Source of the DNA: Bacteroidota bacterium
GTDB taxonomy: Bacteria; Bacteroidota; Ignavibacteria; Palsa-1295
Assembly: GCA_018266755.1 (NCBI GenBank)
Contig: JAFDZW010000005.1
Location: 558,001-622,000, forward strand
Length of the DNA: 64,000 nucleotides
Direction of reading: 5' to 3'
Both the position numbers and the translations under genes were made by a program. Every line of letters starts with the position of its first letter. Within the stretch, counting starts at the first letter, position 1. The notes beneath the pieces are model-generated. The model did no database searches, was not told where the DNA came from, and was given only the letters and a program-made list of their open reading frames with translations. Shown here in pieces: positions 3,739 through 17,048 of this stretch.

Positions 3739-4515
3739 TTAGCCTTGGACAGCAGCGGTTTCTTCGATCTCGTCGATGTCGGCTTCCTTCTGAGCCATTT
3801 CCTTCGACGCGCCTTCATCGAGCCGCTTGACTTTTGCTGCGGCGCGACCGGAATTGATCGCATCGGCAAAGGCATGGATGAAGAGCTGGACGGAACGAAG
3901 CGCATCGTCGTTCGCCGGGATCGGATAATCGACGAGATCCGGATCGACGTTCGTATCGACGAGTGCGAAAATCGGAATGCCGAGTGTACGGGCTTCCTTC
4001 ACTGCGATGTGCTCCTTCTTGATGTCGATGATGATCATCGCACCCGGAAGTCCGCGCATGTCGGCGATACCGCCGAGCGTGCCGTTGAGCTTCTCGTGCT
4101 CGCGAGAGAACAGGAGCTGTTCCTTCTTGGTGTAATTCTCGATCGAGCCATCCTCTTCCCACTTTTCAAGGTCGCGCAGACGCTTGATGGACTTGCGGAT
4201 AGTCGTAAAATTGGTGAGCATACCGCCCGGCCAGCGATCGGTCGCAAAGTGCTGACCGCAACGCTCGGCTTCTTCCTTCACTGCGCCACGGAGCTGCTTC
4301 TTGGTTGCAACGAAGAGGAAGCGCTTGCCTTCGGCAGCCATCTTCTCGGCGGCATTGAGCGCCTCTTCGGCAAGTTGCTGCGACTTGTTGAGGTCGATGA
4401 TGTGGATGCCGTTGCGCTCCATGAAGATGTACGGCTTCATCTTCGGATTCCAGCGACGGGTCAAATGCCCGAAATGCGCACCGGCGGCGAGCAGGTCTTC
4501 TAACTTGATTCTCAT
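3739..4515 (-). CDS. rpsB: 30S ribosomal protein uS2
   Basis: 258 residues starting MRIKLEDLLAAGAHFGH, with the typical S2 signatures FGHLTRRWNPKMKPYIF near the start and the PGAMIIIDIKKE and EARTLGIPIFALVDTN stretches. The C-terminal tail (KEADIDEIEETAAVQG) is acidic and variable, as usual. First gene of an rpsB-tsf unit; the 172-nt gap to rpsI upstream probably holds the promoter. Confidence 0.97.
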   Translation of the reverse strand: MRIKLEDLLAAGAHFGHLTRRWNPKMKPYIFMERNGIHIIDLNKSQQLAEEALNAAEKMAAEGKRFLFVATKKQLRGAVKEEAERCGQHFATDRWPGGMLTNFTTIRKSIKRLRDLEKWEEDGSIENYTKKEQLLFSREHEKLNGTLGGIADMRGLPGAMIIIDIKKEHIAVKEARTLGIPIFALVDTNVDPDLVDYPIPANDDALRSVQLFIHAFADAINSGRAAAKVKRLDEGASKEMAQKEADIDEIEETAAVQG

Positions 4516-4687
4516 TGTGTTGGTTGGTTTGATCTCTATACCCTTCTCGTCGGATCACACGCAACGCGTGACCAGAGCCGACTCAAGCGAAGAGCATATA
4601 TGGTATTAATTCTGCCCGGAGCAACCGGTGGTCGATGCTTGGAATAACGCCAATCATCAACAACCGGCCACCCCGAACACACTTGCG

Positions 4688-5095
4688 TTAGCGCTTCGAG
4701 AACTGGAATCTCTTACGCGCTTTCGGACGTCCGTACTTCTTGCGTTCGACCATACGCGGATCGCGCGTCATGAGGTCTTCCTTACGAAGCACGGGCTTAA
4801 ATTCTGCGTTGATCTCGACGAGCGAGCGGGCGATCGCCAGACGCACTGCGCCGGCCTGGCCGCTGGTGCCGCCACCCATCACATTTGCCGTGACGCTATA
4901 GCTGCCGAACTGACCGGTAGCCTTCAGCGGACGAACGACATCCTCACGGTGAATCGGGTTCGCGAAATACCGCTCAAACTCTTTTCCGTTGACCGAGATA
5001 TTCATCGGCTTGCCGTCGGAGACCGGAGTGAGGTGGACACGTGCGACCGCGTTCTTGCGGCGGCCGACATTGATCGATGCGTGGTGCTTTGCCAT
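4688..5095 (-). CDS. rpsI: 30S ribosomal protein uS9
   Basis: 135 residues. Contains [14 protein letters not shown] and ends [11 protein letters not shown]: the conserved basic tail with terminal SKR that reaches towards P-site tRNA. ATG at 5095, 17 nt after the rplM stop, so the two form the usual rplM-rpsI operon. Confidence 0.97.
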
Positions 5096-5112
5096 AGGTT
5101 CGGTCTAACGAG

Positions 5113-5571
5113 TTATGCGATCTTCAACGTCTTGGGTTGCTGTGCAGCATGCGGGTGCTCTGCGCCAGCGTACACTTTCAACTTCATGCCGGTGCGACGA
5201 CCGAGCGAATTCTTCGGGAGCATGCCCTTCACGGCAAGCTCGACGATGCGGTCCGGATGGGTCGAACGCATGTCTTTGAACTTCGTGAAGCGTGCGCCAC
5301 CCGGATAGAGTGTATTGTGGTAGTACTCTTTCTGGTCTTCGCGCTTACCGGTAAGGCGAATCTTGTCGGCGTTGATCACGACAACAAAATCACCGGTATC
5401 GGTATGCGGGGTGAACTGCGGCTTGTGCTTGCCGCGAAGGACGCTCGCAACCTTGGTTGCAAGGCGGCCGACTGTTTGACCTTCTGCATCGACAATATAC
5501 CAGTCGCGCTTGACTTCGCCTTCCTTGGCGGAGTAGGTCTTTAGCGCATAAGTGTTCGTTTTCTTCGACAC
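5113..5571 (-). CDS. rplM: 50S ribosomal protein uL13
   Basis: 152 residues from a GTG start at 5571, preceded by GGAG seven bases upstream. This start gives the typical L13 N-terminus ([15 protein letters not shown] then [18 protein letters not shown]). The open frame extends to 5637, but the extra 22 residues fall in the leader hairpin region and are not L13-like. Also seen: [15 protein letters not shown]-type core and the [13 protein letters not shown] motif. First gene of rplM-rpsI. Confidence 0.95.
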
Positions 5572-5583
5572 GTTCGTTCTCCA

Positions 5584-5620
5584 GAAAAAAAGTACGGAAA
5601 CCCCTCCGTTCTCGGACGGA
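5584..5620 (-). promoter_or_regulatory. Candidate attenuator leader of rplM-rpsI
   Basis: Between 5620 and the rplM start the minus strand reads TCCGT, then ACGGA, then TCCGT, then seven T. The middle ACGGA (5605-5609) can pair with either flanking TCCGT. Pairing with the downstream copy (5594-5598) makes a terminator-like hairpin before the T run; pairing with the upstream copy (5616-5620) would prevent it. The stems are only 5 bp, so this is a hypothesis. Confidence 0.4.
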
Positions 5621-5703
5621 TTTAGAGCACGGTACAAAGCGATTTTTTTACGGGATAGTTCCTAAATACCCTGATTTCGTAGTTGTTATGGCTATATCCG
5701 CCC

Positions 5704-8053: not shown

Positions 8054-8206
8054 ATCGTAGCAGAGATGATCAATCAGACAATAGACACGCTGTGCCGTTC
8101 TTCGAGTGGGGTAAGAGTAGGGCAAGAGTTCGAGCCCTGAAGTAGCTATCCCGCGTGGTCCGTCAGTAATTCATCGCATAAGTGCAACTCTCGCACCAAT
8201 GCCCAA

Positions 8207-8214
8207 CAAATATA
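8207..8214 (-). promoter_or_regulatory. Bacteroidota-type -10 element TATATTTG
   Basis: TATATTTG on the minus strand about 150 nt upstream of the secreted dehydrogenase start. It matches the TAnnTTTG consensus of the Bacteroidota housekeeping sigma factor. No convincing -33 partner at the usual distance. Confidence 0.35.
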
Positions 8215-8260
8215 CCACCGAGAACAGGAGCCAATCCGCAAACAGATTGGCGCCAATATA

Positions 8261-10033
8261 TCATCGAACAGCTATCTTCAATTCGGCAAGCTGCCGTGGA
8301 TCGATCGTCGAAGGGCAATCCTCCATCAAGCCTTGCATCGACGTCGTTTTCGGGAAGGCGATCACATCGCGGATATTGTCGGTGCCTGCGCAGAGCATGG
8401 TGATACGATCGATGCCAAGTGCCATGCCGCCATGCGGCGGAGCGCCGTAGCGGAATGCATTCAGCATGAATCCAAACTTCTTCTCTTTCTCTTCTTCGCT
8501 GAGTCCGAGCATGTCGAATACTTCTGACTGCAATGCGCGGTCGTGGATACGGATCGAGCCGGAGCCGAGTTCATACCCGTTGACAACGATATCGTATGCG
8601 CGTGCTCTGATCGCCGCGAGGTCGTCCGTCTTGTTTTGCCAATCTTCGACGACCGGAGATGTGAAGGGATGGTGCATCGCGTTGTACTGCCCCGACTCTT
8701 CGTCGAGCTCGAACATCGGGAAGTTCAGCACCCACAGTGGCGCAAAGACGAACTGCTTGCCATCGAGGAGGTTGAGTCGCTTTGCGATTTCGATGCGAAG
8801 CGCACCAAGGATTGTGTATGCACGGCTCCACTTCTCGTGGCATGCAATGAGCGCGAGATCGCCGACCTTCATGTCGCATGCTTCCGCGATTTCTGTGTGA
8901 ATCTCGGGCGAGAGAAATTTTTTCGCACTCGAATCGACGCCTTCTGCTGTCTTCTTGAGCCACACCAATCCGCCGGCACCGTATGTCTTCGCGATCTCGG
9001 TCATCTCGTCGATCTGCTTGCGGCTCCACGCAGCGCCGCCCGGCACGACCACAGCGCCGATCGTGCCCTGCTTCTTTTTCAGGACATCGTTGAAGACCTT
9101 AAACTCCGTGCGACCGCGAAGACGCTCGGTGAGCGTTGCAATCTCGACTTCGTAGCGAAGGTCCGGCTTATCGGAGCCGAAACGCTCCATCACCTCTTTG
9201 TACGAGTAGCGCTGGAATGGCGGCAGTTCGAGACCGACATCAGTCCAAACCTTTCGCAAGCAGTGTTCCATAACGTCATAGACCATCTCCTCATCCGGAA
9301 AGCTCATCTCGACGTCGAGCTGCGTGAACTCGGGCTGTCGGTCTGCGCGGAGATCCTCGTCGCGAAAACATTTGACGATCTGGAAGTAGCGATCCATTCC
9401 GGCGACCATGAGGATCTGCTTATAGATCTGCGGTGATTGCGGGAGAGCATAGAATTCGCCTGGATGGATGCGGCTCGGCACCAGAAAATCGCGCGCGCCT
9501 TCCGGCGTTGCTTTCATGAGCATCGGCGTTTCGATCTCGACGAAGCCGCGTGAGTCGAAATGATCGCGGATCGACTTCGTGACCCGATGGCGAATCAGCA
9601 AATTGCGCTGCAGCTTCGGGCGCCGAAGATCGAGGTAACGATACTTCAATCGCAGATCTTCATTTGCTTTGACCTCGTCCTCGATCACGAACGGCGGCAC
9701 TTCGGCCTCGTTGAGCACAACGATCGAACTGACCAGTATCTCCACTTCGCCGGTCGCGATCTTCGGGTTCGGGTTCGACCGCTTGCGAAGCGTGCCTTCG
9801 ATGCTGACGACAAATTCACTGCGCAGCCCCTTGCCTTCCTCATAGAGGAACATCGTCTCCGGTGTCGGTTCAACGACACACTGCACGACTCCAAACCGGT
9901 CTCGGACGTCGAAGAAGAGCAGGCTGCCCAGATCGCGATGCGAGTTGATCCAGCCGTTGACGACGATACGAGTTCCGACGAGCGACGCATCGACTGCGCC
10001 TGCATAATGGGTTCTTTGCGGAGTATGCGACAT
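8261..10033 (-). CDS. aspS: Aspartyl-tRNA synthetase
   Basis: 590 residues from ATG at 10033 (MSHTPQRTHYAG). Class II synthetase: N-terminal OB anticodon-binding domain (VNGWINSHRDLGSLLFFDVRD), motif 2 with FRDEDLRADRQPEFTQLD, a bacterial GAD insertion domain in the middle (residues about 280-420), and motif 3 GMALGIDRITML near the C-terminus. Length and insertion match the bacterial type; discriminating versus non-discriminating forms cannot be told. Stands alone between a secreted dehydrogenase and a DUF3052 gene. Confidence 0.97.
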   Translation of the reverse strand: MSHTPQRTHYAGAVDASLVGTRIVVNGWINSHRDLGSLLFFDVRDRFGVVQCVVEPTPETMFLYEEGKGLRSEFVVSIEGTLRKRSNPNPKIATGEVEILVSSIVVLNEAEVPPFVIEDEVKANEDLRLKYRYLDLRRPKLQRNLLIRHRVTKSIRDHFDSRGFVEIETPMLMKATPEGARDFLVPSRIHPGEFYALPQSPQIYKQILMVAGMDRYFQIVKCFRDEDLRADRQPEFTQLDVEMSFPDEEMVYDVMEHCLRKVWTDVGLELPPFQRYSYKEVMERFGSDKPDLRYEVEIATLTERLRGRTEFKVFNDVLKKKQGTIGAVVVPGGAAWSRKQIDEMTEIAKTYGAGGLVWLKKTAEGVDSSAKKFLSPEIHTEIAEACDMKVGDLALIACHEKWSRAYTILGALRIEIAKRLNLLDGKQFVFAPLWVLNFPMFELDEESGQYNAMHHPFTSPVVEDWQNKTDDLAAIRARAYDIVVNGYELGSGSIRIHDRALQSEVFDMLGLSEEEKEKKFGFMLNAFRYGAPPHGGMALGIDRITMLCAGTDNIRDVIAFPKTTSMQGLMEDCPSTIDPRQLAELKIAVR

Positions 10034-12367: not shown

Positions 12368-12793
12368 TTATCCCTCCACTGTTAAGCCCATCGAGCGGGC
12401 GGTACCTGCGACCATGCTCATTGCAGTCTCGATCGACGCTGCATTGAGATCCGGCATCTTCAATTCGGCGATCTCGCGGACCTGAGCCGAAGTGACCTTG
12501 CCAACCTTCGAACGGTTCGACTCTTTCGAACCCTTCTCGAGCTTCGCTGCCTTGAGCAAGAGCACCGCAGCCGGCGGCGTCTTGGTGACGAACGTGAAGC
12601 TCTTATCGGAATACACAGTGATCACGACCGGCGTGATCATGCCGTCGGCCTTCGCCGTCTTTGCGTTGAACTGCTTGCAGAACTCCATGATGTTCACGCC
12701 CTTTTGGCCAAGGGCGGGACCAACCGGCGGAGCCGGAGTGGCCTTACCACCCGGGATCTGCAGCTTGATGTAACCCGTTATTTTCTTTGCCAT
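12368..12793 (-). CDS. rplK: 50S ribosomal protein uL11
   Basis: 141 residues with the [21 protein letters not shown]-terminal signature and the C-terminal rRNA-binding TARSMGL end. Pairs with rplA. Upstream there is no secE-nusG in this window but a repeat-rich stretch and an unrelated lipoprotein gene, so the promoter should lie within about 120 nt upstream. Confidence 0.97.
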
Positions 12794-12916
12794 TGCAGTA
12801 GTTTGTTTAGTGGTTCAGGCGTCGCCCCAAAGGCCGACTCCCACGTTTTTCGAGCCCGATATAAACGGTTTTTAACCCAAAAAGTTCGAAGTTTTGGCCC
12901 TTGCTTACCCCAAGAC

Positions 12917-13047
12917 GTCATTCTGAGCAAAGCGAAGAATCCCTTAAGGATCGTACGAACGATCCGTCCGCCCCTCCCCAAAACCAAAAGCACTTCTACT
13001 AAAGCCAGTAGGACGGACTCTCAGTCCGTCCCCTTTCGCACACGACC
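12917..13047. repeat. Intergenic repeat, type A copy 1
   Basis: Starts GTCATTCTGAGCAAAGCGAA, goes through a TTAAGGATCG block and a variable middle, and ends with the palindrome GGACGGACT-CTC-AGTCCGTCC (13011-13031) and CCTTTCGCACAC. The 5' motif is a repeat I recall from many unrelated bacterial genomes. Matches 13973-14102 closely. Confidence 0.9.
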
Positions 13048-13148
13048 GAGTCAGTCGTCGCACCCCAAACCCCGCCCACGAATGAATTCGTGGGCTCACA
13101 CCTGTGGCAGTGCTCCGCACGCTGGGTTCGCGATGACTCAACCACGGC
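13048..13148. repeat. Spacer with a perfect palindrome between repeats A1 and B1
   Basis: Non-coding. Contains CCCACGAATGAATTCGTGGG (13075-13094), a hairpin, then a stretch with CTCACACCTGTGGCAGTGC and GCGATGACTC. It may be a third repeat family, but it occurs once here. Confidence 0.5.
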
Positions 13149-13245
13149 GTCATTCTGAGCAACGCAAAGAATCCCTGCGGCGGAGCCATTCGAATAATCA
13201 ACCCAGTAGGACGGACTCTCAGTCCGTCCCCTTTCGCACACCACG
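13149..13245. repeat. Intergenic repeat, type B copy 1
   Basis: Same ends as type A (GTCATTCTGAGC start; GGACGGACT palindrome at 13209-13229; CTTTCGCACACCAC end) but a shorter middle with GCGGCGGAGCCATTCGAA. Matches 13875-13970. Confidence 0.9.
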
Positions 13246-13267
13246 AAACTACCCGCCTCTCCCCTCC

Positions 13268-13726
13268 TTAGCGCTGCCGAATCAACAACCGACTCCCGAG
13301 GAGATCCGGCATATCGCCGTATGGATTGAGGGACATCGTGTCTTGCGTGATGAGGTTCACGCGGTACGGCTGGCTCAATTGGCTGACCGGAGTAACCGTA
13401 CGTTCGAAGTAATAATACTTGTCATTATGATTGCGAAACTTCATCCGCCCATCGTCACTGAAGTTGGAATCAGTAACCCCGAACCGCATGAACCTGTCCG
13501 ACCCGATCTGAAGATAGTGTATATAGTTAATCTTCACCGAATCATTCACACTTGCGGGAGTATCGACAACATTGAGCATTTTCCAAACGCCTTGCAGTTG
13601 CTCGAATCCGTCAGATTCCGGCGCCGTGCTGCATCCCACCGCGAAGACTGCCGCTGTGAGCAAAACACTGAATATCAAATCATGTGCGGAGGGTAAACGG
13701 AATACATTTCGACCGACTTGCTTCAT
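13268..13726 (-). CDS. Small lipoprotein of unknown function
   Basis: 152 residues from ATG at 13726 (MKQVGRNVFRL); an upstream in-frame start at 13759 is possible. The hydrophobic stretch FSVLLTAAVFAVGC ends in a lipobox-like cysteine, so the protein should be lipidated. The mature part has FEQLQGVWKMLNV, lipocalin-like in feel (LxGxW near the start), then beta-rich sequence with YLQIGSDRFMRFG. I do not recognise a family; a lipocalin-like fold is inference. Flanked on both sides by repeat pairs in mirror order. Confidence 0.7.
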   Translation of the reverse strand: MKQVGRNVFRLPSAHDLIFSVLLTAAVFAVGCSTAPESDGFEQLQGVWKMLNVVDTPASVNDSVKINYIHYLQIGSDRFMRFGVTDSNFSDDGRMKFRNHNDKYYYFERTVTPVSQLSQPYRVNLITQDTMSLNPYGDMPDLLGSRLLIRQR

Positions 13727-13874
13727 ACTCGAGTTGTTGAATGATGAATAGACATACAATTGTATAGCACTACCACCTCGTTCCGACGCCGACCTGACAA
13801 CTTGGTGAATTCCACTTCATCGCACCCCATCCCGAACCCGCCCCTCCCGAACCCCACCCGTCATCAACCCACCA

Positions 13875-13970
13875 GTCATTCTGAGCAAAGCGAAGAATCC
13901 CTTCGGCGGAGCCATTCGAACCATCAAGCCAGTAGGACGGACTCTCAGTCCGTCTCCTTTCGCACACCAC
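13875..13970. repeat. Intergenic repeat, type B copy 2
   Basis: Near-identical to 13149-13245. The palindrome is at 13935-13955, with the last base changed from C to T, weakening the end of the stem. Confidence 0.9.
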
Positions 13971-13972
13971 CC

Positions 13973-14102
13973 GTCATTCTGAGCAAAGCGAAGAATCCCT
14001 TAAGGATCGAACGAAAAATCAGACCGCCCCTCCCCATGACCAAAAGCACCTCTATTACAGCCAGTAGGACGGACTCTCAGTCCGTCCCCTTTCGCACACC
14101 AC
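13973..14102. repeat. Intergenic repeat, type A copy 2
   Basis: Near-identical to 12917-13047 and directly abutting B2. Palindrome at 14067-14087. Ends about 30 nt before the -10 element of the next gene. Confidence 0.9.
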
Positions 14103-14131
14103 GATTCCCAACTCCGCCACCCGCCGCAACT

Positions 14132-14139
14132 TATATTTG
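14132..14139 (+). promoter_or_regulatory. -10 element TATATTTG, probably leaderless
   Basis: TATATTTG ends 6 nt before the ATG at 14146, so the start site should fall at or next to the start codon. No Shine-Dalgarno is present. No clear -33 element; the upstream DNA is the end of repeat A2. Confidence 0.5.
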
Positions 14140-14145
14140 TACCAC

Positions 14146-14400
14146 ATGACTCCTTTTAAGCAGACATACAGTGAGGTCGCCGATCTCGTCCGGCAATTCG
14201 AAGAAATCGAAGCACACGATCTGTCCCTGAAGGTTGGACAAACGTTTAACGCCATGAAGCGCCTCGCCGCTACGCGCAGCGACGCGGAACGCACCCAGCT
14301 CGAACGCAAATCCCACTACCTCGACGCGGAGATCGACAAGTTGGTGTACCAACTGTACGGGTTGAACGAGGAGATCAGAATTATGGATGGGAGGGAATAG
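14146..14400 (+). CDS. Orphan C-terminal tail of an N6-adenine DNA methyltransferase
   Basis: 84 residues from ATG at 14146. The C-terminal half (RTQLERKSHYLDAEIDKLVY then QLYGLNEEIRIMDG) matches the end of many type II/IIG N6-adenine methyltransferases, where a coiled-coil is followed by IDxLVYxLYGLTEEEIxIVE. None of the catalytic domain (NPPY) is present. It is an open frame with its own promoter-like element, so it may still be translated, but it is best read as a gene remnant. Two further decayed copies of the same tail occur at 15352 and 16288. Confidence 0.65.
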   Translation: MTPFKQTYSEVADLVRQFEEIEAHDLSLKVGQTFNAMKRLAATRSDAERTQLERKSHYLDAEIDKLVYQLYGLNEEIRIMDGRE

Positions 14401-14401
14401 A

Positions 14402-15310
14402 ATGCTACCTGGGCACCACGCCTCATTTTACAAAAACTACGCAAAAAACTACTTTAGAATAAAGGCTTCGCTTCTCAGGCATGAGTGGGAAGCATCTGAG
14501 GCTTTCTTCGCGGGTCTGGAGAACCTTCGTGTCGACGGGACTGAAGCCGCGACGTGTCTGAAACTTGAGATCCGAGGTGTATTCTTTCAAGCAATAGAGA
14601 CTTTGTTTGAGCTGATTTTCGCTCTCGAATCGGGCAACGACGCCAATATCTGGCAATCATTGGTGGATGCCCCTTGGTCGAAGAATTATGCAAGGATTCA
14701 AGCATTTTCTGAAGGAAGAGATGGATTCTTGGACAAGAAACTCAGCTTTCCTGGCAACGATGCGGACTCGTTGTTCGAGCCAACATTTCTTCAGTATGTC
14801 TTCTTTTTTATTTATGTGCCTGACCTTCCAGATGACGGATTCCAGAAGACTCTCAGTTTCATCCGAGAGTTTCTTGTCGTTGCTGCTCGCGAGTTTTCCG
14901 ATAGAGATGACTACAATGCGTACAAGCATGGACTGCGTTTGTTCCCTACGATTGTTGGAATGAATTTAAGTAATTCGCTCGCCACGGTTGATCTCGATTT
15001 CGGAGACACATACACGATCTTGAGACAGAATGACCCGTACACGCACTATATCAAGACCTTTGACATTGACCGCGACTTGCGGATGATTAATGTGTGCGGT
15101 GAATTGATTTCCAATATTATTAACTTCCGCAAATTTTTCTTCTTTCCAGATACTGGCTATGCCGGGTATTATTATTACGCTGACGAAGACGTGAGTCAGG
15201 TAACTAGCCCAAACTTGAAGGCGGCAAACATATCGTTCTCAGTAACACCCGTCTTTCGGGAACAGAATGAAACGCGTAGCGGAGAGCCGAATGTATCCAA
15301 TGTTGGTTGA
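14402..15310 (+). CDS. Unknown 302-residue protein in accessory island
   Basis: Begins just after the stop of the methyltransferase-tail ORF (ATG at 14402). Lower GC than its neighbours, rich in Phe, Tyr and Asn, no signal peptide, mostly helical. One segment, DDYNAYKHGLRLFP (residues about 180-193), has the Asn...Lys-His look of HEPN-type domains, but the canonical R-x4-6-H spacing is not met, so HEPN is only a suggestion. It lies between two copies of the methyltransferase tail, as a cassette would. A defence role is inferred from context only. Confidence 0.6.
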   Translation: MLPGHHASFYKNYAKNYFRIKASLLRHEWEASEAFFAGLENLRVDGTEAATCLKLEIRGVFFQAIETLFELIFALESGNDANIWQSLVDAPWSKNYARIQAFSEGRDGFLDKKLSFPGNDADSLFEPTFLQYVFFFIYVPDLPDDGFQKTLSFIREFLVVAAREFSDRDDYNAYKHGLRLFPTIVGMNLSNSLATVDLDFGDTYTILRQNDPYTHYIKTFDIDRDLRMINVCGELISNIINFRKFFFFPDTGYAGYYYYADEDVSQVTSPNLKAANISFSVTPVFREQNETRSGEPNVSNVG

Positions 15311-15351
15311 GAGTTGACTTCCGTGCGAGGCGAGAGCGAGGATGTAAGCCG

Positions 15352-15475
15352 AGGGCGCAAACGCGACCACCTCGACGCCGAGACCTCGACAAGCTAGCGT
15401 ACCAACTGTATGGGCCCCGCCCCTTCGGTACCTCAGGGCAGGCTACGGAGGAGATTGAGATTGTGGGGAGGGGGG
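15352..15475 (+). pseudogene. Decayed methyltransferase tail, copy 2
   Basis: DNA matches the LDAEIDKLVYQLYG segment of copy 1, with GAGACCTCGAC replacing GAGATCGAC (2-nt insertion, frame broken), an in-frame TAG, and about 25-29 extra bases between the YG codons and the GAGGAGATT end. Copy 3 shares both changes. Confidence 0.7.
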
Positions 15476-15517
15476 AAATCAGTGAACTTTCGATGAATTG
15501 CCAATTGTTCATTTTTC

Positions 15518-15805
15518 ATGTTACAGATAGATCAGAGCACACAGCGCGACGGGTACACCTTTAGTTTGAATCCGCGGAGCAAGCAGAACCTTCGCGACAA
15601 AGAGCCGAACATCCAGCCCCTCCCACGTGTCTTTATAGCGTTCGATACCGCGAGTGATTTTCAACGAGAACGCGGCGACTTATATGAACAGATAGCAGAA
15701 CTTCTTACACGGCTGAGTGAATCGGAGTTGAGGGAAAAATTCGGGGGATACGAGATTGTCGATCCGGTGACTGGTCAACTCCTCTTCTCCCGTCCAAATG
15801 CCTGA
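15518..15805 (+). CDS. Small unknown protein paired with a nuclease-like gene
   Basis: 95 residues, ATG at 15518. Contains PRVFIAFDTASDFQRERGDL and a helical C-terminus LYEQIAELLTRLSESELREK. No family recognised. It overlaps the next gene by 8 nt, the arrangement expected of a two-gene unit such as toxin-antitoxin or effector-immunity pairs, which is inference from layout alone. It lies between methyltransferase tail copies 2 and 3. Confidence 0.6.
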   Translation: MLQIDQSTQRDGYTFSLNPRSKQNLRDKEPNIQPLPRVFIAFDTASDFQRERGDLYEQIAELLTRLSESELREKFGGYEIVDPVTGQLLFSRPNA

Positions 15806-16280
15806 CCGACGATCGCTGTTCATCGGTCGCAGCGGTGAATTGGCGGTACTATCCGAACTCTTATCTCGTGGGTACAACGCTGCGACACCAGAGATCGATG
15901 CAGGTGAAGACGTCTTCGTAATAGAAGATGGTAAAGAGGGATACTGGCCTGTCCAGGTTAAGACGGCGACCGCCGCCGAGCGCACTGATGGTTCGTGTAG
16001 CGCTCAGTTCAATTTCCGAAAAGATCAATTGGTGACGACGCCAAACGTTGAACTGACCTATATCCTTGCGTTGCGTCGCAATAAGCAGTGGTTGAGTTTC
16101 CTGATCATCCCTCGCGCAACACTGTATGAGCTGTTCCAATTAGGCAAACTTGGGCAACAAAATGGAGACCAGCTGACATGGTCGGTTATGTATGACGGCA
16201 CGAGCCGTACTTGTCAGAGTGCCGATTTGAGCATGTTCGAATCCGATTGGGAAACCCTCTGGCCCGATCTTCTGAACTAG
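15798..16280 (+). CDS. PD-(D/E)XK nuclease-like protein
   Basis: 160 residues. The pattern G-E14-LAVLSELLSRGY, then G-E-D38-VFVI, then Q53-V-K55-T is the core of a PD-(D/E)XK fold of the kind found in small restriction-like and Holliday-resolvase-like proteins (G-x-D-x(12-16)-QVKT). Expected activity is metal-dependent DNA cleavage; the Q-x-K variant is common in the superfamily. Overlaps the preceding 95-residue gene. The C-terminus ends just before methyltransferase tail copy 3. Confidence 0.7.
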   Translation: MPDRRSLFIGRSGELAVLSELLSRGYNAATPEIDAGEDVFVIEDGKEGYWPVQVKTATAAERTDGSCSAQFNFRKDQLVTTPNVELTYILALRRNKQWLSFLIIPRATLYELFQLGKLGQQNGDQLTWSVMYDGTSRTCQSADLSMFESDWETLWPDLLN

Positions 16281-16287
16281 CACGTCA

Positions 16288-16436
16288 GTGCGCGCAGCGA
16301 CGCGGAACGTACCCAACTCGCACACAACTGCGACTACCTCGACGCCGAGACCTCGACAAGCTGGTGTACCAACTCTACGGGCTAACCATTCTATGCTCTG
16401 GGCAAATTCTCTGGAGGAGAATAAAATTGTGGAGGG
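16288..16436 (+). pseudogene. Decayed methyltransferase tail, copy 3
   Basis: Shares CGCAGCGACGCGGAACG with copy 1 at its start and the GAGACCTCGACAAG 2-nt insertion plus the extra block with CTCTGGGCA with copy 2. No open frame. Begins about 10 nt after the nuclease-like gene stop. Confidence 0.7.
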
Positions 16437-16464
16437 GCGTGGATTGAATGCCCCTTCCCCCCTA

Positions 16465-16494
16465 CCCCTTCCCGTAACGGGAAGGGGATTTTAT
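16465..16494 (+). terminator. Intrinsic terminator after the accessory cassettes
   Basis: Stem CCCCTTCCCG/CGGGAAGGGG with a TAA loop, followed by ATTTTATTTC. Strong; it should end plus-strand transcripts coming from the nuclease-like gene. Between here and 16720 I see no gene. Confidence 0.85.
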
Positions 16495-16639
16495 TTCTTT
16501 GCTAACGCCTGATGCTTTTATAGTCTTACTCTTCAACCGGCGTAAGCAAAGACAATAATAAGCCATACCGTTACGGGAGGGTTGGGGAGGGACTTTCGGC
16601 AGCCGGTATGCCCCGCGATGAACTGACATCTTCGATCTT

Positions 16640-16661
16640 GAGACGCGCATTTGCGCGTCTC
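16640..16661. repeat. Short palindrome
   Basis: GAGACGCGCA-TT-TGCGCGTCTC, a perfect hairpin of the REP-like kind seen between genes in many bacteria. Only one copy in this window. No gene around it. Confidence 0.6.
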
Positions 16662-16725
16662 TACAAGGCCTATTCCCTACTCAGGTGCTCGTAATATTAA
16701 ATCTCAAGAATAAGGAGTTAGCATA

Positions 16726-16756
16726 TTGACAAAAGAGACATATTTCCGTATATTTG
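16726..16756 (+). promoter_or_regulatory. Strong promoter, TTGACA-17-TATATTTG
   Basis: TTGACA at 16726-16731, a 17-nt spacer, and TATATTTG at 16749-16756. Best promoter-like sequence in the window. It drives a very short unit that ends at a hairpin about 45 nt later. Confidence 0.7.
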
Positions 16757-16759
16757 TGA

Positions 16760-16830
16760 CATGAACAATGCGCCCCCGCTCGGGAGACAGATCGTCAGAA
16801 AAACGTCCGCTTCGGCGGACGTTTGTGTTT
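16760..16830 (+). ncRNA. Candidate short RNA or leader peptide unit
   Basis: About 65 nt between the promoter and a hairpin terminator (stem ACGTCCGC/GCGGACGT at 16803-16822, TTCG loop, extended by AA/TT, then GTGTTT). An ATG at 16761 could start a peptide (MNNAPPLGRQIVRK...) that reads on through the hairpin. The unit could be a small RNA, or a regulated leader of the membrane-protein gene at 17049. Confidence 0.4.
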
Positions 16831-17048
16831 GGGGAAGTTCGGGGACTGTGCAATATTATATCGTTTAATTCTAATGATTTAGACATACCTCTTTTCAAAT
16901 TCCGGCTCACGGTGCACACGGCACGGCGATGGGTGCGGGGCGCCCCGTGAGGTGCAGGCGTGCAGTGGGCGGTCGGTGGCATGTGAAAATGGGAGCATTG
17001 ATTACCGAGCGGATTTTGTTGAGACTCGTCAGAAAGGAGTCTGCTCCG

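Follow-up and report, generated by a model that had tools for sequence, protein, structure and literature searches.

In integrons, each cassette is followed by an attC site, an imperfect palindrome. The loci described here resemble integrons in that a one-direction array of small, promoter-poor genes, each joined to a repeat, lies behind an anchor gene, that the order of these genes is permuted between relatives, and that the cargo is rich in toxin-antitoxin and defence genes. However, the repeat in our case is the coding 3′ end of a restriction-modification (RM) gene, referred to below as the tail, where an integron has attC; the anchor is the RM gene where an integron has intI; the tails precede the passenger genes; and no integrase lies near the array of the window, by which we mean the whole 64,000-nucleotide stretch of DNA that was analysed. 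An integron would be expected to have an integron integrase at the start of the array, and this one begins with a collapsed RM gene instead. The rearrangement of cassettes as units between relatives, also expected of an integron, is found in arrays of Methanothrix.

In polymorphic toxin and CDI loci, cassettes recombine at the 3′ end of the toxin gene, and orphan toxin-immunity cassettes are present (PMC3482391). The likeness lies in a single 3′ recombination event that would swap a variable domain together with a linked downstream gene, and in the spare modules downstream. In contrast to those loci, it is the DNA-recognition domain that varies here and the constant C-terminus that repeats, and the spare modules are independent defence or toxin genes. 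There is no large secreted toxin gene with a variable C-terminal toxin domain, as CDI would demand; the anchor gene encodes an RM enzyme whose C-terminus is constant. At the tvr locus of S. pneumoniae, a type I RM locus is shuffled by a recombinase (PMC6265443). RM specificity is reshuffled there via direct repeats as well, and toxin-antitoxin homologues occur in the locus, but the encoded recombinase acts on hsdS genes, whereas here whole accessory genes shuffle at a type IIG tail and no recombinase was found among the ORFs of the window array by Pfam search. In the exchange of recognition domains (TRDs) between RM specificity genes, a variable domain between conserved blocks is swapped, as it is here in the genome pairs G140/G165 and G027/G054 and in Methanothrix. 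The difference is that in the present loci extra genes behind the right-hand conserved block move too, and extra copies of that block are left. No description of a type IIG-tail cassette arrangement was found in open-access PMC, a search that largely leaves out subscription papers and preprints.

The array in the window

The array lies on contig JAFDZW010000005.1 and occupies approximately 14146-16436 of the + strand. All positions are window coordinates, and its features are as follows.

14146..14400, + strand: type IIG RM gene collapsed to 84 aa, with codons 1-29 (14146-14232) fused in frame to the last ~55 (14233-14400)
14272..14400, + strand: tail copy 1 in the extent first assigned to it; ends GGATGGGAGGGAATAG, 1 nt ahead of the next ATG
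14402..15310, + strand: passenger 1, a 302-aa protein whose function is unknown; accompanies RM genes in relatives
15311..15480, + strand: tail copy 2, decayed; 2-nt insertion and ~29-bp extra block
15518..15805, + strand: passenger 2a, a 95-aa partner protein; 8-nt overlap with the next gene
15798..16280, + strand: passenger 2b, a 160-aa putative PD-(D/E)XK-like nuclease; invariant D34/D38 ... Q53-V54-K55
16281..16436, + strand: tail copy 3, decayed; the same 2-nt insertion as copy 2 and a ~28-bp extra block; ends GTGGAGGGGC

The RM gene 3′ end is thus present as three direct copies on the + strand, with the 302-aa gene and then the overlapping pair of 95 and 160 aa between them. The initial annotation had claimed three copies of a methyltransferase tail, and both the copies and their identity were upheld. 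Local alignment gave scores of 65.5 for copies 1 and 3, 55.5 for copies 2 and 3, and 35.5 for copies 1 and 2, far above the shuffle maximum of 15.5-17.5 (500 shuffles each). The repeat aligns along its full length as type IIG coding sequence, PADLOC type IIG RM profiles match the C-terminus of the collapsed gene, and the ~1000-aa Eco57I/TaqI_C enzymes of relatives end in the same tail. Among these relatives, the full-length L014 matches Eco57I at 2e-42, TaqI_C at 9.5e-14 and the PADLOC model REase_MTase_IIG at 1.1e-229 across aa 9-1020. It meets the definition of a type IIG RM enzyme of the Eco57I/TaqI_C class, being a single protein of ~1000 aa with both domains and the tail at its end.

Copy 1 had been taken for an open tail of ~120 bp. 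It is open, but actually longer, the whole ORF 14146-14400 being assigned to the RM gene. In five full-length relatives from the family, residues 1-29 align with the N-terminal start at scores of 47-68 (shuffle maxima 39-52), and residues 37-84 with the last ~45 residues at 111-147. Judged from these alignments, the ORF is a type IIG RM gene after an in-frame loss of ~940 codons, and it doubles as tail copy 1. The full-length enzyme is no longer encoded at the window, where only codons 1-29 and the last ~55 are left. Fold prediction for the 84-aa ORF gave helices only, with moderate confidence. As a side observation, aa 6-76 of the collapsed gene are matched at E=2.8e-05 by phrog_5328, a family of 101-aa phage proteins whose function is unknown; phages may carry small tail-like proteins.

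Copies 2 and 3 had been said to share both a 2-nt insertion and an extra block of 25-29 bp. The shared insertion (GAGA-CC-TCGAC) stands. The extra blocks lie at the same site, but their mutual alignment score of 7 does not reach the shuffle maximum of 9, and one common inserted sequence is therefore unsupported. Both copies are decayed while the passenger ORFs of the window stay open. Genome searches found no further tail copies in the window's own genome, and there is no Rfam family match in 12500-17000 of the window. No tyrosine integrase is encoded within ~700 kb of the array, the nearest PF00589 match being ~700 kb off on the same contig. No empty site was found in the window's family, in which rplK is conserved, the next genes differ and rpsR is on other contigs. 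Outside the array, two long repeats (131 nt at 92% and 107 nt at 89%) lie between genes at 12916-14102 and are made of 'GTCATTCTGAGCAAAGCGAAGAATCCC' and the palindrome 'GGACGGACTCTCAGTCCGTCC'. A GC-rich inverted repeat followed by T-rich sequence was read by eye at 16446-16500, directly behind tail copy 3, and is possibly the terminator of the array.

Homologues of passenger 1 occur in G019 (L215), flanked by an S-subunit-like gene and an hsdR-like gene of 974 aa, and in G277 (L217), where the homologue adjoins a DNA methyltransferase gene. It should be mentioned that the roles of these neighbours were assigned by reading the sequence, without a profile test; on this basis the G019 homologue reads as a member of a type I RM operon. 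The pair 2a+2b is kept in G007 (L013; 93+165 aa), directly behind an MmeI-type RM gene, and a similar pair of 97+155 aa stands alone in G192 (L214). Passenger 2b matches phrog_5018 (E=3.6e-07), and its D and QxK residues are invariant in an alignment of five homologues. These residues suggest a PD-(D/E)XK nuclease, the fold of which remains unconfirmed: the single-sequence prediction has a pLDDT of 41, the 160-aa protein has no Pfam match at E <= 1, and solved-structure searches with both passenger families returned nothing credible. A search of a set of genome contigs gave no relatives of this nuclease. Both modules are sporadic, occurring in 4-5 of 391 genomes, as expected for exchanged accessory genes. 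No relative was seen to carry both of these modules, so the modules of the window have not been observed in permuted order, and the origin of its own three copies by module exchange is inferred from the analogy with other loci and from the shared 2-nt indel.

Tail recurrence and module exchange in other genomes

Further tails lie downstream of full-length type IIG genes in the window's family. Of 107 loci whose type IIG gene is full-length or cut off by the contig, 32 carry a total of 52 extra copies of the 3′ end, all 52 downstream and none upstream. In a set of 46 full-length loci, extra C-terminal copies were present in 13, within ~5.4 kb downstream on the same strand and limited to the last ~20-70 codons; the sole other match to the query was a distant full-gene paralogue (L106). 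Since this set was mostly picked by tail-score rank, and L108-L110 were added for their known orphan tails, 13/46 is no estimate of prevalence. In a control, the C-terminal 55 aa of type IIG enzymes recur in the next 6 kb for 20 of 65 genes, with all 34 recurrences on the same strand, while neither the N-terminal nor the middle 55 aa recur for any (0/65 each). Of 303 other large ORFs, 20 have recurring C-termini; three of these are truncated type IIG genes, and most of the others are paralogues in tandem or have a C-terminal domain in common. With the truncated type IIG genes left out, the comparison of 20/65 type IIG with about 17/300 other genes gives a Fisher p of 1e-7. The 3′ coding end of the type IIG gene, and no other tested part of it, recurs downstream in the same direction.

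A pattern-based scan yielded 79 loci spread over many phyla of Bacteria and Archaea, about two dozen of them with multiple tails, all in one direction; the taxa include Chloroflexi, Planctomycetota, Verrucomicrobia, Hydrogenedentes, Smithella, Methanothrix, Methanoculleus, Methanoregula and ANME-1. The initial annotation had named beforehand a search of related genomes for the same tail beside different genes, and such tails exist at large scale. The outcome that would have refuted its idea of exchange, a single intact locus that decayed in place without its flanking genes being exchanged, can be ruled out for these loci as a class. In phages, no orphan tails were found, only haloviral type IIG genes. 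On plasmids there is one clear orphan tail, a 64-aa 'hypothetical protein' of Planktothrix agardhii plasmid p4 (L115, 5068-5259) located directly behind a DNA methyltransferase gene; unannotated haloarchaeal tails were left unresolved. On a plasmid of Haloarcula sp. JP-L23 (L113, CP050016.1 211640-221771), a tyrosine recombinase gene comes after a type IIG tail that is possibly the frameshifted end of the preceding 1298-aa gene. Two loci of one Methanomicrobiales MAG, GL140_5_metabat_83 (L153 and L189), have identical first 138 bp and then different tail-passenger modules, which suggests strain variation or paralogous loci.

Module exchange is most readily followed in Methanothrix. Four genomes have a common upstream flank at the RM locus, and their RM genes are about 85-88% alike in the methyltransferase part and have the tail in common, but not the recognition domain. 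Passenger b lies immediately behind the RM gene in two of the loci, and passenger a in the third; the fourth has a then b and has lost the RM body. Written as strings, the modules are c-b-e-a-f-g (G409), b-c (G391), a-b-e (G392), a-f (G393), c-a-d (G404) and a-d (G394), and module b also occurs behind a longer, divergent type IIG gene (1309 versus 1011 aa). The Methanothrix arrays contain 63 homologous blocks with 233 ends, of which 100 fall in or near a tail, compared with 12% of random array positions, and 133 away from tails. The blocks are not independent, and the significance of this enrichment is only indicative. The tail preceding a passenger was top-ranked in 8 of 29 cases, so tails do not consistently travel with their passengers; this fits crossovers inside the tails, but fits other histories too. 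Between arrays, the tails are more divergent than the passengers.

A bounded replacement is seen in an orthologous pair, G140 (L096) and G165 (L109). At this locus, the left flank and methyltransferase core are 90-95% identical and the right flank 86-95%, versus an identity of 0.22-0.24 in the TRD windows. In G165, the RM gene is followed by two additional tails, at least four genes and then a last tail. The G140 tail and flank (4029-5647) match this last orphan tail and its flank (8055-9639) at 86%, and the last tail of G165 is closer to the RM tail of G140 than to the RM tail of G165 itself. The new TRD and the passengers consequently lie between the core and the old tail. TRD and passengers differ as one block, bounded by the core and by the tail on the ancestral flank; whether the block was gained in G165 or lost in G140 is not settled. 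In G027/G054, a recognition domain was exchanged without passengers.

Proposed tail-to-tail recombination and its alternatives

We propose that homologous recombination from tail to tail swaps specificity and stacks passengers, a reading that is inferred without any experiment and to which we assign a probability of about 0.75. The tail, i.e. the last ~60-200 nt of the type IIG RM gene, is a conserved block 3′ of the variable TRD and would thereby lend itself as the right-hand arm in homologous recombination. Incoming DNA of the form [TRD - tail - passenger - tail ...] would recombine at the core and at any tail, and in this single step the RM specificity could be switched and defence or toxin genes stacked behind the RM gene. 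Because each extra tail would offer another place for crossover, arrays could grow, shrink and permute, with recombination between tails also deleting or permuting modules. In the window, the RM gene would have collapsed to codons 1-29 and the tail, with two RM-associated modules remaining between the tails. Ordinary homologous recombination is inferred from the lack of an integrase within ~700 kb of the window array, the variable boundaries and the reassortment of tails and passengers; a recombinase acting in trans is not excluded. The variable tail length (60-200 nt) leaves the origin of the first orphan tail unexplained.

The 5′ boundaries of the orphan repeats lie at about -194 to -48 from the stop codon, and the variability of these boundaries indicates that the repeat has no fixed core; the 3′ ends are mostly near the stop. 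Orphan tails are about 60-200 nt long, and several comprise only the last 20-30 codons. Of 85 orphans, 54 are intact, many with their own ATG at a conserved Met (MLATK...), and 31 are not. An ATGA overlap, with the start of the following gene at exactly -4, occurs behind 11 of the 24 intact orphans that have a neighbour, and behind 14 of 51 RM genes. The last codons of the tail encode I-V-E-G, often as GTG GAG GG, a Shine-Dalgarno-like run, although GGAGG in the last 24 nt is not clearly commoner in coupled tails (19/35 IIG, 8/21 orphan) than in uncoupled ones (26/69, 8/33). These codons could supply a passenger with a Shine-Dalgarno-like site and ATGA coupling, which may hold passengers to the tail; considering the 31 orphans that are not intact, not every tail can serve as such a leader. 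In some cases (L076, L110), no gene separates the orphan from the RM gene. In L110 (4130-6400) and in L187, a strong palindrome (AAAGATTCCATCCCGACAAGTCGGGATGGAATCTTT) alternates with the tail fragments, several of which have no gene between them.

Integrative elements at tRNA genes restore the gene with an element-borne copy of its end. By the same token, site-specific mobile elements could insert at the type IIG 3′ end with an end copy that restores the gene, the arrays being tandem insertions. Such elements would account for insertions that are always behind the 3′ end, in the same orientation and with the gene left intact, and a tyrosine recombinase gene does follow a type IIG tail on the one Haloarcula plasmid. 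We nevertheless consider them unlikely, as neither an element-borne recombinase nor a fixed att core is in evidence: the boundaries vary over the range given above with no common core, no recombinase lies at or near the window array, and the 25 Pfam families found most often among 72 passengers include no integrase. Many modules hold only one or two small genes, and the TRD is exchanged along with the modules.

C-terminal fragments of Rpn proteins are translated separately (PMC10327210). The orphan tails could likewise be genes in their own right, kept by selection and encoding proteins of ~50 aa that regulate the RM enzyme or the passengers. The predicted helical structure, at its moderate confidence, and the intact orphans with their own ATG and coupling to neighbours would suit such a role, which is made improbable by the 31 orphans that are not intact, the several reduced to 20-30 codons, the decay of window copies 2 and 3 beside open passenger ORFs, and the greater divergence of tails than of passengers. 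Hardly any credence is left for decay in place, by which the tails would be remnants of deleted whole type IIG duplicates, with defence-island genes lying between them by chance. Window copy 1 is itself a deletion remnant of a full gene, and L146 lacks the RM body seen in L140 and L156; yet remnants never exceed the last ~70 codons, no other part of the gene recurs, passengers are permuted at the tails, and G140/G165 represents one bounded replacement.

Recombination between tails, our preferred reading, can be extended to the statement that type IIG genes in Bacteria and Archaea are integrase-free cassette platforms, whose 3′ coding end serves as the site of recombination and also as translational leader, and at which host recombination switches specificity and loads or reorders anti-phage and toxin genes in one step. 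We see even chances for this broader statement. If true, it would provide a route for gathering and reshuffling small defence genes without integrases or transposases, with the RM gene end as the cassette joint, and would join two events usually studied apart, a change of restriction specificity and the gain of accessory defence genes. The growth of defence islands would become testable at a defined locus. Direct copies of the type IIG 3′ end are a simple searchable signature for unannotated defence and toxin genes in many phyla.

Passenger cargo

Many modules consist of one or two small genes, and 102 of 124 ORFs between tails are oriented in the direction of the RM gene. Passengers with a family match are mostly of defence or toxin type, with TIR, DUF4062, AbiGi, GmrSD-HNH, GxxExxY PD-(D/E)XK, DUF559 nucleases and DUF4258 among the families, as well as PIN, ParE/YafQ, Mrr, RhuM, AlbA_2, CAP12-type TIR, HEPN and AbiJ. 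Many others have no family match, and a few are ordinary (subtilase, flavodoxin-like and one transposase). An ORF behind an orphan tail in L078 (4853-5164), without a Pfam match, resembles a REP-associated transposase by sequence guess, and has relatives among the ORFs that follow other type IIG genes (L092, L103, L171).
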